This document shows positions 28,439 to 36,827 of a stretch of 64,000 bases of DNA, piece by piece. Made by a program: the position numbers and the translations under genes. The first letter of the stretch is position 1, and the number at the start of each line of letters is the position of its first letter. Below the pieces are notes generated by a model that did not search any database, was not told the DNA's origin, and worked only from the letters and a program-made list of their open reading frames with translations. Origin of the DNA: Archaeoglobus profundus DSM 5631 (GTDB lineage Archaea > Halobacteriota > Archaeoglobi > Archaeoglobales > Archaeoglobaceae); assembly GCF_000025285.1 (NCBI RefSeq), contig NC_013741.1:310001-374000 (forward strand), read 5' to 3'.

Positions 28439-28721
28439 TTTTTATTCTCATATGAGAATTAATGTGGGAAGGCGACCTAGTGGTAGGGTGAACTTTTGTC
28501 TGAGGATTGACAGGCATCTATACGAGAGATTAAAGAAAATAGCGGAAGCAGAGGGAAGATCTATCGCTGATCTCCTAGAACCAAAGATAATTGAATTGGT
28601 AGCGGTCTATGAAAAGGAATTGGCATGGGCTCGCCCGGATTCGAACCGGGGACCTTCGCCTCGTAAGGGCGACGTCATAACCCCTAGACCACGAGCCCTA
28701 TCTTGCCTATTGAGTATTTGA
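28425..28721 (+). CDS. Ribbon-helix-helix-like protein reading antisense through tRNA-Val
   Basis: An ORF of 98 codons from ATG 28425 (101 from TTG 28416). Residues up to about 65 form a plausible RHH protein: [21 protein letters not shown] then [23 protein letters not shown]. The frame then enters the antisense strand of tRNA-Val, giving [16 protein letters not shown], and stops at 28721. The arrangement repeats that at 25701-26063. Translation of the tRNA-derived tail is unproven. Confidence 0.55.
28626..28698 (-). tRNA. tRNA-Val(TAC)
   Basis: On the minus strand the acceptor GGGCTCG (28692-28698) pairs with CGAGCCC, with discriminator A at 28626. The anticodon stem-loop TCGCC-CTTACGA-GGCGA gives TAC. 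The T arm is CCCGG-TTCGAAT-CCGGG. No intron or encoded CCA. Its 3' end points into the island. Confidence 0.97.
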
Positions 28722-28738
28722 TTATAAGTATTGCGGTA

Positions 28739-30490
28739 ATGTTATTAACAGATCGATCGATACGAGCAGTGTCGCGCCCAAGCTGGGATGAATACTTCAT
28801 GGAACTGGCTTTGGTCGTTGCGAAGCGCTCAACTTGCTTGAGGCAGAAGGTGGGAGCAATAATAATCAAAGATAAGAGAATTCTAGCAACCGGATACAAC
28901 GGTGCTCCTTCTGGAATGGCTCACTGTTTGGATATAGGATGTTTGAGAGAGAAGCTGAGTGTTCCGAGCGGAGAAAGGCAGGAGCTATGCCTAACGCCAG
29001 ATGTTGAAATTTTAACAGATAGAGGATTTGTTAGAATTTCCGATATTAAGGTAGGAGACAAGGTCTTAACCCATAGAAATCGGTATCAAAAGGTCGTTAA
29101 GGTGATTAGTAGAGACTACAAAGGAGAAATTTGCGTAGTTAAGCCGATGGGACTCCTACCGATAAGGCTGACACCAGAACACGAAGTTTTGGCAGTAAAG
29201 ACTGTAAAATGCATCGATGGGAAGACGATCTGTAAGGAATCGTGCCAAAGCATCCTTAGAGAAAGATGTAAGAGATTTTTCGAAAGCTACGAAGAGGACT
29301 GGATACCGGCAATACTTTTGAACAAAGGTGATTTAGTCGTGTTTGGATTTGACACAACAGTTGAAAACTTAAAATCGCTTGACCTATCGAAGTACATTGA
29401 AAATCCTCCTAAAGTTTATTACGATGTTGTTAGAGCTAAGAATTCTGGAAAGACATACAGTTACATCGAGAAAGTTTACGGTATCAGCAGGAGTGTAGCT
29501 TGGAATTGGGTAAATGGAGGATCGCCCAGAGGATACGTGATAGTTAGGAATGGGATGCTACATTCAGGTGACTCTCCGAGTAAGGACATTCCCGCAGAAA
29601 TAGAAATCAATAAGGATACGATGTGGCTCTTTGGAATCTACTTGGCTGAGGGTTGCACATCAGGAAACCAAATTGCCTTTGGTTTGAACGTCGAGGAATC
29701 TGAAATCGTTGAGAGAATAGAAAACGTTATGAGAGAGACGTTCAATCTGAAGCCAAACATTTACACGAGAAAGCAATCGACGCTTGTAAGATACTCCTCC
29801 AAGATACTTGCAACAATCTTTGAAAGGTTGTTTGGTGGGAACGCGTATACGAAGAGGATTCCAGCAGAGTTGATGAGGGTAAAACCAAAATTGCAGTCCT
29901 ACATGCTTAGGGGATGGCTTGAAGGAGACGGATATGATAATTCTGTTGATGTCAGAGGAGTTACAGCCTCAAAAACTTTAGCACTTCAGATGTATCAAAT
30001 CTGCCTAAGACTGAACATGCTACCAACTCTCGATAGTTCGCCTCCACGAAAGGGTGTTAAATCGGTAATGTATCGCTTGAGGATAAACAAGAATCCAAAG
30101 TTGAAGACGAGATACATTAAAAACGGAAAGCTGTATACTCCAGTTTCTTACGTAAAGATGGACTTTTACGAGGGTAAGGTTTACAACTTGGAGGTTGAAG
30201 AAGATAAGTCATTCGTAACGGAATCGTTTATAGTTCACAACTGTAGGGGTTTGCATGCTGAGCAAAATGCAATCATTCAAGCTGCGAAGTTCGGAATATG
30301 CATCGATGGAGCTACGATGTACACAACGCACTGTCCTTGCATCACATGTGCCAAAATGATAATCAACGCTGGGATAAAGAAGGTGGTTTACGGAAAGGAG
30401 TATGCGGATAAAAGGGGTTTAGAACTTTTGAAGGAAGCTGGAGTTGAAGTTGTTTATTTACCAATTGAAAAGCTACTTGCAAAATCTTAA
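28739..30490 (+). CDS. dCMP deaminase precursor interrupted by an intein
   Basis: The precursor is 583 residues from ATG 28739 (a TTG at 28703 or GTG at 28769 are alternatives). The extein halves, up to ...GERQEL and from [12 protein letters not shown], join to a deaminase of about 165 residues. Zinc and catalytic residues are in HAE of the C-extein and in HCPCITC. It converts dCMP to dUMP for thymidylate synthesis. The N-extein contains [12 protein letters not shown] and [12 protein letters not shown]. Splicing would be needed to bring GERQEL next to CRGLHAE, so unspliced protein should be inactive. tRNA-Val lies just upstream, divergently. Confidence 0.9.
28988..30241 (+). other. Intein with LAGLIDADG homing endonuclease, 418 residues
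   Basis: It begins with the nucleophile Cys (TGC 28988-28990) in [15 protein letters not shown] (block A) and ends with FIVHN (block G), followed by Cys +1 of the C-extein. Block B is near [15 protein letters not shown], with the TxxH-type histidine. Endonuclease motifs are LFGIYLAEG and [10 protein letters not shown] (two LAGLIDADG copies). All splicing residues are present, so it should splice. The insertion point is five residues before the zinc-binding HAE. Confidence 0.92.
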
Positions 30491-31994: not shown

Positions 31995-32903
31995 ATGAGA
32001 CTTCTTACGATAGGCGTGGGAACTAAAGGGGCGGAAATTTCCAGTCTTTTGTATAAAAGAGGGGTTAAGGTCAATCGAATTCCTCTTTTCAGGTGTTATG
32101 CTGTTCTAAATAATCTGAACGATGTTAGTAAAATAAAGCTGGATGAGAAGAATAAGTTCTACCTTCCCAAGAACTCGGACGTTACTGGAATCATTAACGA
32201 GATAATGAGCAGATACGAAATTCACGAGGGAGCTATGCTCATAACGTCCATTAAGGAGGAAGATTTTAACGTCACGATTGAGTTGAGTCGCAAGCTTAGA
32301 GAGGTTTTGGATGATCCTGTGATGGTATTGGGTGTTTTGAGCTTAAAGAATGTTGATTCTGGAGAGTTGAGAAGGAGAATTAAAAGTTTGAAGGAGTTTT
32401 CAGATTACCTTCTTCTGACAAGGGAAGAGAGCGTGAATGAAACAGTCGAAGCGCTGAACATTCTCGCAAGGGTTGGTGAGATCGATTTGAAGAGGAGGGT
32501 TGCTGGTGAGGTTGTTGTAGACACTTCAGATCTATTCAATGCCTTAGCAAGGGATGGATTTACCGTTTTAGGTCAATCTAAGCGTAGTATACCTATTTTT
32601 AAATTTTTCATGAAGAGAAGTCAGCTCTTGGCTTTGAGAACTCAGAGGATGGTTGAGATGGTGAAAGATGCCGTGAGAAATCTCAGCTTCAATGGGGACA
32701 TTGAATCTGCCAAGAGCTCTCTTATAGTTTTTGCCGGAAATCCCGATGAAATTACTATGGATGGTCTGTTCGCAAGCATAAGCTTTGTCGAAAGTTTGAA
32801 CGATGGTATGGTCGTTAGATACGGAGATTATCCCATTCCCAGAGCTAGGTTTTTGAGTACCGTCGTGCTCTTCTCTGGATTAAGGAAAATTAAATTTGAC
32901 TGA
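31995..32903 (+). CDS. Divergent tubulin/FtsZ-superfamily protein lacking the GTP-binding signature
   Basis: A 302-residue protein. The N-terminus LLTIGVGTKGAEISSLL looks like the first FtsZ nucleotide loop, and later parts follow the FtsZ order: SDYLLLTREESVNETV, VVVDTSDLFNALARDGFTVLG, then a C-terminal domain with SLIVFAGNPDEITMDGLF and VLFSGL. However, the tubulin signature GGGTG(S/T)G is absent; the equivalent stretch reads GAMLITSIKEED. It is therefore likely a non-GTPase or altered-nucleotide relative with an unknown cytoskeletal role. It is divergent from PolD DP1 and overlaps the end of the SpoIIM gene by 14 nt. Confidence 0.65.
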   Translation: MRLLTIGVGTKGAEISSLLYKRGVKVNRIPLFRCYAVLNNLNDVSKIKLDEKNKFYLPKNSDVTGIINEIMSRYEIHEGAMLITSIKEEDFNVTIELSRKLREVLDDPVMVLGVLSLKNVDSGELRRRIKSLKEFSDYLLLTREESVNETVEALNILARVGEIDLKRRVAGEVVVDTSDLFNALARDGFTVLGQSKRSIPIFKFFMKRSQLLALRTQRMVEMVKDAVRNLSFNGDIESAKSSLIVFAGNPDEITMDGLFASISFVESLNDGMVVRYGDYPIPRARFLSTVVLFSGLRKIKFD

Positions 32904-33471
32904 TTATAGGAGTTACGTAGGTCTCTATAAAGGCCGCTACGAGTAGCATCGGCATGACGTATTTCAAGTAAGCTCTAACGGCCCTCTTAATCTCAAACTT
33001 TATGTCAACACTCACCCCCCTAGCCCTATTCAACGTGGCGATACCCAGCTTCAATCCGTAAGAGCATGCAATCAAAACGGCTGGGATCTCAAGTATACCG
33101 TGAGGTATTAGCATCAATAGCACTTTCAACAATCCAACATTCTTTGAAACAACGGCAGAAACGACACCTATTGTGAACCCGTTGATGGCTATGAACAGAA
33201 CAGGGATTACACCAAAAGCTAGGCCAAGTAACATGTTTACAAAACTCTTGACGGTATTATTAACGAAGATTACAGCAAATATCATTGCCTGTGGAAGATC
33301 TTTGACAAACGATAAGCTTTCGAAAATCTGTTTTATAAAGGTTTCAGCTTGATCGGGATGGCTTGCAGCCCATTGGTAGCCGATGTAAGTTGATAGGAGG
33401 AATACCGCCAGAAGTACTATGAACTCCTTCATGCTGTAAGGCATACGAAAGATTAATATAACCTTTCCCAA
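32890..33471 (-). CDS. SpoIIM-family membrane protein
   Basis: A 193-residue integral membrane protein of the stage II sporulation M family. Five or so hydrophobic segments, with the typical [20 protein letters not shown] and [23 protein letters not shown]. Archaeal members have no known sporulation role. The start may be a later ATG (M10). It is convergent with the FtsZ-like gene. Confidence 0.88.
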
Positions 33472-33492
33472 GCTCTTGAGCAGGTGATAAGA

Positions 33493-33765
33493 ATGGCAGA
33501 GAATGCGGTGTTTGTTGGGAACAAGCCGGTAATGAACTACGTGTTGGCCGTGCTGACGCAGTTCAACAACGGCGCAAAGGAGGTAGCAATTAAGGCGAGA
33601 GGAAAGGCGATAAGTAGGGCAGTCGATGTAGCAGAGATCGTCAGAAAAAGATTCTTGCCAGATGTCGATGTCAAGGACATAAAGATCTCAACTGAGCAAA
33701 TCGAGAGCGAGCAGGGAACTGCGAACGTCTCAGCGATTGAGATAATTTTGGCTAAGAAGGAGTAA
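33493..33765 (+). CDS. albA: Chromatin protein Alba (second copy)
   Basis: A 90-residue Alba protein from ATG 33493 (in-frame start at 33484 also possible). It shares [23 protein letters not shown]-type sequence (shown in part) and [21 protein letters not shown] with the first copy. Alba paralogues can form heterodimers with different DNA and RNA binding. Confidence 0.95.
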
Positions 33766-33788
33766 CTCTCTTTCTTTTGCTTTTATTT

Positions 33789-34430
33789 ATGATTGAAGAA
33801 TTTTTGGATTTTGTTAGATCTAAGCTCGAAGAGAAAGAGTTAGCTAGAGAAGAGTTACTTAAGCTTGTTAGAGAAATGCGAATAAACTCCACAAAAGCCA
33901 TAGCTTCAATTCATGCTGGCGATTTTAAGAAGGCTGACGAATACCTAAGAAATGCGATGGAAATACTTCAAAAGGTTAAGGAGTATAAAGTCTATCCAGA
34001 CGTTTATTACCCCGTAACATTCGATGCCATGCAAGAGTTAGTTGAAGCTTACGTCTTCAGGCATATCGTTGAAAATTACGATATCGACGTTGATCTAAGC
34101 CAACTCGATGTGGAGTTCGCTCCGATCTTAACTGGTTTAGCCGATGCTGTTGGAGAAATTAGAAGACATATACTTGATTTACTCAGAAAAAATGAGTTTG
34201 ATAAGGCCGAGAAGTTGATAGGCATTATGGAGAGAATCTACAATAACCTCATAACGTTCAGCTTTCCGGACAAGATAACTCCAAATTTGAGGCCAAAAGT
34301 AGATTACGTTAGGAATGCAATAGAGAGAACAAAATCGGATTTCATATCTGCAAAAGCTTCCGCTTTGAGTGAAGATGTTAAAAGCTTAGAAGAGCTTATC
34401 AAGAAGCTTCAACAATCTTTAAGAGCTTAA
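33789..34430 (+). CDS. Translin-family RNA-binding protein
   Basis: A 213-residue all-helical protein (from ATG 33789) of the archaeal translin family. TKAIASIHAGDFKKADEYL and PVTFDAMQELVEAYVF are characteristic. Eukaryotic translin binds single-stranded nucleic acid and with TRAX forms C3PO; archaeal homologues form similar octamers, with unclear role. Converges with the VWA gene, overlapping 32 nt. Confidence 0.85.
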   Translation: MIEEFLDFVRSKLEEKELAREELLKLVREMRINSTKAIASIHAGDFKKADEYLRNAMEILQKVKEYKVYPDVYYPVTFDAMQELVEAYVFRHIVENYDIDVDLSQLDVEFAPILTGLADAVGEIRRHILDLLRKNEFDKAEKLIGIMERIYNNLITFSFPDKITPNLRPKVDYVRNAIERTKSDFISAKASALSEDVKSLEELIKKLQQSLRA

Positions 34431-35691
34431 TTCCTCCAGCCTCACTTAACTCCGCTCTCATGTAGCAGTCGCTTATGCTTTTTAAGGTCTCGTTTTCGCC
34501 CTGAATCATAACCGAGATGAGATTTGCGTTCGCCTTCTTTAAATCCTTTGAGAGGTCTTCAACTACATCCTCCCCGTCAGTTATTATTACGATTGTGTTC
34601 GTCAAATCCGACAACCCCCTTTCAACTAAATCTTTTACAGCAGTTCTTAAGGCATTTGTTATGTCGGTTCCTCCGTTTGACTTAACCTTTAGAATAGCGT
34701 CAACAACTTCATGCGGATCGCTCAGCAAGTGATGGGTTTTCTTGTCGAAAAATCTGAGGAAGTACCTCCTCCTTTTTAGGCTCGCCATCCTGTATATTGC
34801 CAAGGCAACACTTCTCGCCCAAACCGTTTTTTCACCAACCATAGATCCACTTTTATCCACGAGTATGTAATAGGCGCCTTCAGCAATGCTGAGCTTCTCC
34901 TTCGTTAGAAATCCTTCACCGCTAAACTTTTTCAAGAAGAGCTCTTCTGGTAGAGCTAGCTCTCTAACTAAAGCTCTGTCTATTCTTTTGGTTAGGCTGT
35001 AACCGGATAGCTCTTCCCCGAATCTCCCCCTTTTCTTTAGAATGTATGTCGCTTTTGGAATGTGGCTGAAGAGCTTCTTCGAGAAGGAGACTATATCTCT
35101 CATGAACTTCACATAAAGCATGTGCTCAGCCAAATCTAAAACTTTCTTGAACGTTCCCTCCTCCTTTCCAGCCCTTTTACCACCTATAAGTTCCCTAACA
35201 TCGTTTGCATTTCTGACCATCTCTTCAGCATATTCGGTTGCGTAATCCAAAATCGCCGGAATCTCTCCGCCTTCAACCATAGCCCTCATCGCCCATACGA
35301 CGTAAGCCTTCAAGTTATCGAACGGGTTTTCGTGCTCGAGTCTTATCAATCCCAAAACCTTCCCTATAACAGCCTTTGCCAAAGCTATGCTGTATGCAAG
35401 GCTCATCTCATCGTCTAAAGTCGTAAGCATCTTTATCTTCTGATACCTATCGCTCGAGATGTAATCCTGCAAAAACTTCCTAGCCTCTTCAAGCACGTCG
35501 TCTTCATTCTTTGATCTCAAGAAAGGGTAGAGGGAGTAGTGTAGAAAGTAGCAATCTGTAGCGATCAGTTGAATCTGCTCACAAGTTCTGTAAACCTGTT
35601 GTAGATCTTTTGGCAGATAACCTTCAATTCTCTGAGCGATCAGCTGATAGATAAAGTCATCATTTGTAACGTTTACGAGATTGTTCTTCAT
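34399..35691 (-). CDS. VWA-domain protein, partner of MoxR ATPase
   Basis: A 430-residue protein. The first 265 residues are helical (CoxE/ViaA-like); the C-terminal von Willebrand A domain has the MIDAS motif DKSGSMVG, then NGGTDITNALR and IVIITDGED. Such proteins pair with MoxR/RavA AAA+ ATPases to load metals or remodel proteins. Overlaps the ATPase gene by 4 nt (ATGA). Confidence 0.87.
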   Translation of the reverse strand: MKNNLVNVTNDDFIYQLIAQRIEGYLPKDLQQVYRTCEQIQLIATDCYFLHYSLYPFLRSKNEDDVLEEARKFLQDYISSDRYQKIKMLTTLDDEMSLAYSIALAKAVIGKVLGLIRLEHENPFDNLKAYVVWAMRAMVEGGEIPAILDYATEYAEEMVRNANDVRELIGGKRAGKEEGTFKKVLDLAEHMLYVKFMRDIVSFSKKLFSHIPKATYILKKRGRFGEELSGYSLTKRIDRALVRELALPEELFLKKFSGEGFLTKEKLSIAEGAYYILVDKSGSMVGEKTVWARSVALAIYRMASLKRRRYFLRFFDKKTHHLLSDPHEVVDAILKVKSNGGTDITNALRTAVKDLVERGLSDLTNTIVIITDGEDVVEDLSKDLKKANANLISVMIQGENETLKSISDCYMRAELSEAGGIKLLKIVEAS

Positions 35692-36827
35692 ATTCCGAAG
35701 AGTTCAGCCTTCTTCCTCTCCAAAACGTCTTCTGCTCTACTGTAAACCTGCTTGAACTGTCTTATGTACGGTAGCAATCTCGGATTCTTCGGTATCTCAT
35801 CCATTAAAGTTGATGCTTTCTTGTAAATTGTCGATAGCATCTTAAGTTCTTCCATTCCACCGTTAAGACTCGCATTTAAGGCGTTTTGCAACTCCGCAGT
35901 TACAACCTGAATCTTCTGCACGTGCTGATAGAAACTGCTCAGTCCAAGCTCGAGTATTATCTGTTCAACCTTTTTCAAATCCTCTTCATCGTGAACGGCT
36001 GTAAGCTTCAAAGCCTCTGCTAAGGAGTCTAAGCTAACATCGTTCTCTCCGTAAACGAAGGATATTGCAGAGGCTACTTTCAGAACCTTTATTTTCCTCC
36101 TATCCGAAATCTTAACTCCCCTTTGCTTTAACCTCACTAGAGCTTCGATATATCTCCTTATTAGATCTCTGTTGCTGGTAATCTGCCTAAACTTTTCCAT
36201 TACTGCATTTTGCAAACTTTTAACGTCGTTCACGCTCATAACGATATCGCTTTCAACGCCCAAATCTAGTTCGACGCCCTTTTCTATTAACTCTTCCCAT
36301 GAATCCTCTGAAACACCTTTAACAAAGCATCTTATTGTTAGCCTGTCGTAGAATGGCGCATCTTCGACATCGCCACTTATCTCGTTGCTTGCGGTATACA
36401 ACGCCAGCATCGGCAACCTTATGTAACTTCCATCACTGAAAATTCTCTTGTTAAGGATTATGTCCAGAAGAATGTTTCTGATAGCCGAGCTTGCCTTGAA
36501 AATTTCATCCAAGAAGACTATCTCAGCTTGCGGAAGCTTTCCTTCAGTTCTTCTGACGTACTTACCTTCCCTCAATGCATTTATATCCAAAACACCCAGT
36601 ATCTCATCTGGCTCGGTAAACCTTGTTAAGAGGTAGTAGAAGTACCTAGCATCGATCATGCTGGCTAGATTTTCGATTAAAGCCGTTTTAGCCGTTCCAA
36701 CCTCTCCAACAAGTATTGTAGGTTCTCCAGAAAGCAGACCGGCAAGTACAGCTGTTATCTCTGCCTCCCTCTGAACGAACCTCTCCGCAAGCCTATACTT
36801 AAGTTCGGTAAGCTTGTCCTTCAACAT
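35688..36827 (-). CDS. MoxR/RavA-type AAA+ ATPase
   Basis: A 379-residue ATPase. Walker A GEVGTAKT (about 41-48), Walker B IVFLDEIFKA (about 103-112), sensor-1 ALYTASNEI. The C-terminus after residue 280 is helical. RavA/MoxR ATPases act as chaperones with VWA partners, here the next gene. Client unknown. Confidence 0.9.
   Translation of the reverse strand: MLKDKLTELKYRLAERFVQREAEITAVLAGLLSGEPTILVGEVGTAKTALIENLASMIDARYFYYLLTRFTEPDEILGVLDINALREGKYVRRTEGKLPQAEIVFLDEIFKASSAIRNILLDIILNKRIFSDGSYIRLPMLALYTASNEISGDVEDAPFYDRLTIRCFVKGVSEDSWEELIEKGVELDLGVESDIVMSVNDVKSLQNAVMEKFRQITSNRDLIRRYIEALVRLKQRGVKISDRRKIKVLKVASAISFVYGENDVSLDSLAEALKLTAVHDEEDLKKVEQIILELGLSSFYQHVQKIQVVTAELQNALNASLNGGMEELKMLSTIYKKASTLMDEIPKNPRLLPYIRQFKQVYSRAEDVLERKKAELFGI

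Follow-up and report, generated by a model that had tools for sequence, protein, structure and literature searches.

Cell shape in archaea is set by filaments of CetZ. Two CetZs have been counted in each complete genome of the Archaeoglobales and the Methanomicrobiales, and the second CetZ of the Archaeoglobales was described as 'Non-Halobacteria-like', deep-branching and with a short M-loop (Brown and Duggin 2023, PMC9856176). CetZ is also listed for the Archaeoglobi, alongside new CetZ-like groups, in the CetZ passages of PMC9871819, and those passages do not describe the protein family reported here. There is no mention of a lost GTP site or of a one-sided subunit in the Results, Discussion and Methods of PMC9856176; in the main texts of the literature searched the loss of the pocket is not noted, and no regulator acting on the ends of CetZ filaments is named in that literature.

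How a subunit with only one working face might behave can be judged from FtsZ. In the FtsZ of S. aureus, the water that attacks the GTP of the lower subunit is kept in place by the T7 residues D210 and D213. FtsZ mutations in the bottom (T7-side) face are reported to be toxic, whereas those in the top face are not (passages of PMC8936486). Filaments of the tubulin superfamily have negative regulators or caps, among them the plastid protein ARC3, an FtsZ-derived chimera fused to a kinase-like part (in the part of PMC5877594 that treats it), and MciZ, a cap that binds the bottom (T7) face (the same passages of PMC8936486).

Gene and family assignment

The window, which is the whole stretch of 64,000 nucleotides from Archaeoglobus profundus DSM 5631 that was analysed, contains a gene whose product had been predicted to be a tubulin/FtsZ relative without the GTP-binding signature. 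The open reading frame is genuine, and chance is not its explanation because orthologues occur across the Archaeoglobales, dN/dS is 0.02-0.06 and the predicted fold compares with CetZ1 at a Z of 32.3. Its features are as follows.

31995..32903, + strand: entire gene of the pocket-less CetZ paralogue (open reading frame, ATG start, 302 aa)
31995..32033, + strand: S1/T1 loop, residues 1-13, with GVGTKG (alignment)
32136..32210, + strand: residues 48-72, site of the deleted T3 loop, KGHGVGTDN in canonical CetZ (alignment)
32211..32270, + strand: residues 73-92, S4 and the position that T4 would occupy, with SIKEE-DFN instead of the canonical GLGGGTGSGG (alignment)
32475..32558, + strand: residues 161-188, T7 loop together with the first part of H8, GE...GEVVVDTSDLFNALARDG (the family's most conserved stretch)
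32805..32885, + strand: residues 271-297, last strands S9-S10, with VRYGDYPIP (alignment, model)
32890..33471, - strand: SpoIIM-type membrane protein, convergent neighbour with a 14-base overlap with the 3' end of the paralogue gene (PF01944, E 1.1e-36)

The G-rich first loop, IGVGTKG, spans residues 6-12 and the stretch DTSDLFNALARDG residues 176-188. The protein ends a few residues past S9-S10, with neither H11 nor the acidic tail.

The assignment of the paralogue to CetZ was based on family models, sequence matches and a predicted fold. The Pfam family CetZ_C (PF21011) covers residues 147-299 with an E of 3.1e-20 and 72.8 bits, against a cut-off of 21.6, and the best sequence matches in the PDB are the CetZs of H. 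volcanii (4b46, E 1.8e-12; 4b45, E 2.8e-10). At E<=10, the same Pfam search of the window protein returned no match to the Tubulin GTPase domain (PF00091) and none to the FtsZ domain. An AlphaFold2 model built from 43 sequences (pLDDT 89.6, pTM 0.89) has the tubulin/FtsZ fold, with two domains connected through helix H7; in Foldseek it matches 4b46 with an E of 1.2e-20, and it superimposes on CetZ1 with a VIA Z of 32.3 and an rmsd of 2.3 over 276 residues. Lower scores were obtained for CetZ2 (31.2), the CetZ of Methanosaeta (27.7) and FtsZ (about 24-26), and the CetZ structures outscore every FtsZ row shown in the comparison. In addition, the T7 motif VVDTSD lacks the Asn that stands two residues before the first Asp in the NxDxxD of FtsZ. 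Structure comparison therefore found a predicted fold related to tubulin, rather than the unrelated fold that would have told against the original prediction, and sequence, family models and fold together uphold membership of the tubulin superfamily; the affinity, however, is to CetZ and not to FtsZ.

Compared with the canonical CetZs (H. volcanii CetZ1, 4b46, and CetZ2, 4b45, and the CetZ of the organism's own genome at locus L043), the paralogue shares the whole fold, the CetZ_C domain, the T7 position and the R-G-D-P strand, but it lacks the GTP pocket (T3, T4 and T5), the C-terminal helix and the acidic tail, and is about 80-100 aa shorter. As judged from sequence and model, the paralogue is a CetZ-family pseudoenzyme in which the whole two-domain fold was kept and its own nucleotide site was dismantled.

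Loss of the GTP pocket

Motifs were counted in an alignment (A1) of 36 of the 37 orthologues, the omitted one running off its contig. The absence of GGGTGSG from the window protein, as first predicted, was borne out for the family as a whole, since neither GGGTGSG nor GGGTGTG is present in any of the 36 aligned orthologues; the canonical T4, GLGGGTGSGG, is replaced by the family consensus SLEDDFGY. The T3 motif is likewise retained in 0/36, and alignment against canonical CetZ shows that most of T5/H5 and the C-terminal tail are also missing. T1 is partly kept: G7 and G9 are invariant (36/36), and the complete GxGxxG is found in 29/36. One deep member of the family (L037) still passes PF00091, at 37.7 bits against a cut-off of 33, and no such match was found in L036; on these sequence matches, the loss of the pocket appears to have been graded, with L037 as an intermediate state.

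The partly retained G-rich T1 and the PF00091 score of that deep member could be taken to mean that the paralogue is an ordinary divergent CetZ, still able to bind GTP and to form polymers by itself. Given that the window protein has no PF00091 match and that T3 and T4 are missing in all 36 aligned orthologues, we consider this very improbable.

The retained T7 face and a possible filament cap

The face opposite the lost pocket is retained. The T7 motif EVV[VI]DTSDxxN, with both acidic residues, is present in 36/36 aligned orthologues, and D176 and D179 of the paralogue fall in the alignment columns of the FtsZ T7 acids. A second alignment (A2) was gathered by a pattern search (EVV[VI]DTSD and [EDN][ED]ITM[DE]GxF), so that the invariance of T7 there partly reflects the patterns used; the A1 counts are unaffected by these patterns, its orthologues having been gathered by whole-protein search. 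The second T7 acid is Asp in all 36 orthologues, as in FtsZ, whereas it is Glu in 29/29 aligned rows of canonical CetZ. Among 10-residue windows of the paralogue family, residues 171-180 (T7) rank first in conservation (0.26 bits, median 1.65); in canonical CetZ, the top window is T4 (0.05 bits) and T7 comes 73rd of 395. Conservation is inverted between the two, with T4 at the top in canonical CetZ and T7 at the top in the paralogue family, and the paralogue would be a clear example from nature of this inversion in a pseudoGTPase of the tubulin superfamily. T7 is also where internal model confidence is lowest, the 10-residue blocks from residue 161 scoring 58 and 67.

The first reading of the sequence held that the protein might be a scaffold or regulator of FtsZ/CetZ filaments. 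This is plausible, and the retained T7 face narrows it to a subunit with a single working side or a cap for CetZ. By analogy with FtsZ, we tentatively propose that the paralogue caps the GTP-exposing end of CetZ filaments, a reading that we regard as a serious candidate though somewhat short of probable. Points against it are the Asp in place of the CetZ Glu in T7, the low model confidence there, the near absence of canonical cetZ and of any conserved gene from the neighbourhood, and the AU result on ancestry given below. The T7/H8/S9 face would dock head-to-tail on the GTP-loaded face of the same cell's canonical CetZ, with D176 and D179 placing the water molecule for its attack on that neighbour's GTP. 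Having no nucleotide of its own, the paralogue would offer no competent surface to a next subunit, and the GTP-exposing end would be terminated or capped; it may also trigger hydrolysis of the terminal GTP, which would set filament length or turnover. The geometry of the superfamily would allow addition at the GTP-exposing end only, and if CetZ behaves as FtsZ does, the capped end would be the one that does not grow and the cap would be tolerated. Like ARC3 and MciZ, the paralogue would act as a negative regulator or cap, but unlike ARC3 it has no kinase-like part, and the face that it is proposed to cap is opposite to the one bound by MciZ. A paralogue with one filament face would offer a natural means of finding the growing end of a CetZ filament.

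The N-terminal domain, which contains the degenerate face, is not decaying at random. The family conserves N27, L31, F32, N68, E75 and E78 in this domain, and all of these except N68 differ from the canonical CetZ consensus. The five newly fixed residues suggest, at the level of sequence, that the degenerate face gained another partner or role, and this counts against a bare cap because a bare cap would not need new conserved residues. They are accommodated by an alternative in which the paralogue is an alternating or obligate hetero-subunit. It would then take up fixed positions in a copolymer with CetZ, and its upper face, though free of nucleotide, would form a new contact with the T7 face of CetZ where a cap would end the filament.

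The septin fold is unrelated to that of tubulin and CetZ. Septin pseudoGTPases are nevertheless like the paralogue in being cytoskeletal GTPase paralogues that lost nucleotide activity and kept an assembly interface, which lends the hetero-subunit some support, but unlike it they belong to ordered hetero-oligomers in eukaryotes (abstract of PMC10731463). Since the elements that make the upper contact of FtsZ (T3, T4 and T5) have been deleted from the paralogue or are not conserved in it, we judge a hetero-subunit unlikely. The same family-specific residues outside T7, together with the invariant T1 glycines G7 and G9, would also suit a nucleotide-independent scaffold or adaptor that makes no end-on contact with a filament and keeps the T7 stretch for folding or for another ligand. 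In a scaffold, however, T7 and the start of H8 should drift, since they are interface elements of the superfamily, and here they are the most conserved part of the protein and the catalytic acids are invariant; a role of this kind is therefore improbable.

Distribution and selection

Among 60 related genomes, orthologues were found in 37 of the 38 that belong to the Archaeoglobales (families f1 and f2), and 36 of these 37 also carry a canonical CetZ, with T3 and T4 intact in those that were aligned, the organism's own included. Across 392 genomes of the phylum, 53/57 genomes of the Archaeoglobales (f1/f2) have a match of at least 370 bits and the next match scores 152; the four without the paralogue are either <90% complete or >5% contaminated. 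A pattern scan of 84,980 species returned 42 loci, all labelled as Archaeoglobi, as Archaeoglobales or with the name of one of the order's families or genera, and it is on these names that f1 and f2 are equated with the Archaeoglobales. No orthologue outside the Archaeoglobales was found in either the phylum genomes or the pattern scan.

Values of dN/dS were 0.02-0.06 in the 7 of 16 pairs with a finite dS, three of those seven having a dS >1.5 and the remaining nine pairs being saturated. These low values indicate that the paralogue is under strong purifying selection, and together with its presence in 53/57 genomes of the order they rule out a pseudogene or decaying copy.

The organism's own genome has two FtsZ genes and one intact CetZ besides the paralogue. 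The two FtsZ genes, and an Asp at position 179 as in FtsZ, could indicate that the paralogue docks through T7 on FtsZ and regulates the FtsZ1/FtsZ2 division filaments instead of those of CetZ. This is distinctly improbable, given that the C-terminal domain, the fold and the context of T7 (VDTSDxxN, with no FtsZ-type Asn before the Asp pair) are all CetZ-like. Tubulin/FtsZ genes are present in 60/60 genomes, far more widely than the paralogue, and co-occurrence is therefore no support for FtsZ as the partner.

Genome G033 contains a single intact CetZ plus the paralogue and, by elimination, the paralogue is probably the second Archaeoglobales CetZ of PMC9856176. The count of 'two CetZs' per genome would accordingly conceal a protein whose way of working is unlikely to be that of CetZ.

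Ancestry and the long CetZ-like proteins

A tree of 70 proteins, which took in 23 of the 36 rows of the paralogue family, resolved three supported groups: canonical CetZ (95/98), the paralogue family (100/99) and a group of long CetZ-like proteins (100/99), with no supported branching order among the three. The paralogue family falls outside the canonical CetZ clade. A clade of the paralogue with the canonical CetZs of the Archaeoglobales was rejected by the AU test (p 0.0065), a test that was named after the tree had been seen. Recent duplication of the organism's own CetZ is ruled out by this result, so the paralogue cannot be explained as just an eroded version of its putative partner.

The long proteins (L049, L113-L122 and L127) are about 400-940 aa in length, most with a long acidic low-complexity tail. 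At E<=1e-70, 34 of 196 phylum genomes contained a single such match each (families f6, f13, f16, f23, f24 and f25). They probably represent the second CetZ of the Methanomicrobiales in PMC9856176. As in the paralogue, T3 and GGGTGSG are missing and both T7 acids are kept (12/12 aligned), T4 being reduced to GLGG[SNRA]; unlike the paralogue, they are longer, mostly retain an acidic tail, and retain T5/T6 and the Glu of T7. PF00091 scored above its cut-off in the one long protein examined.

With the 23/36 family rows, a clade of the paralogue and the long group was compatible with the data (AU p 0.457), the free tree preferring another arrangement by 0.41 lnL. When the paralogue family was represented only by the two deep members of f2 and L127 was left out, the clade was recovered at 95/80, and the long branches leave it unsure. 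It is doubtful, but worth stating, that the paralogue and the long group (probably of the Methanomicrobiales) might be one ancient lineage and at the same time half-site caps, which would have kept of the composite GTPase just its T7 half and would end or time CetZ filaments. Such proteins, if this were true, would be dedicated terminators built from the filament's own subunit.

Genomic neighbourhood

The SpoIIM-type gene had been pointed out as a neighbour with overlapping ends. The overlap of 14 bases is real, but it carries no functional evidence: SpoIIM adjoins the paralogue in 7 of the 42 named loci, always convergently, and a functional link is ruled out on these grounds. Elsewhere the neighbours are housekeeping genes with no common theme (tRNA pseudouridine synthase, M24 peptidases, NUDIX, GAPDH-like and KH proteins), and no gene neighbour conserved across the order was found among the 42 loci. 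In JdFR-42 (L037, L091), paralogue and canonical cetZ stand side by side on one strand, the paralogue upstream at a distance of 147 bases (L091, 8001-10319). This adjacency is seen at 1/42 named loci only, and in the other genome of the same family (L090) no cetZ start was found in the 274 bases downstream of the paralogue.

Other genes nearby were also recorded. At 28703-30490 (+), the window encodes a deoxycytidylate/cytidine deaminase split by an intein that carries an endonuclease of the LAGLIDADG type (Hint_2, Intein_splicing, LAGLIDADG_3), and an ORF of similar length that matches it is in the same place in L052. A VWA protein and a MoxR-type AAA ATPase, with overlapping ends, are encoded at 34399-36827 (-); this is likely a chaperone pair without a link to the paralogue. 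At 33484-34430 (+), Alba (PF01918) precedes a member of the Translin family (PF01997, E 1.6e-6), and homologues of both adjoin the paralogue gene in L052-L056 as well.
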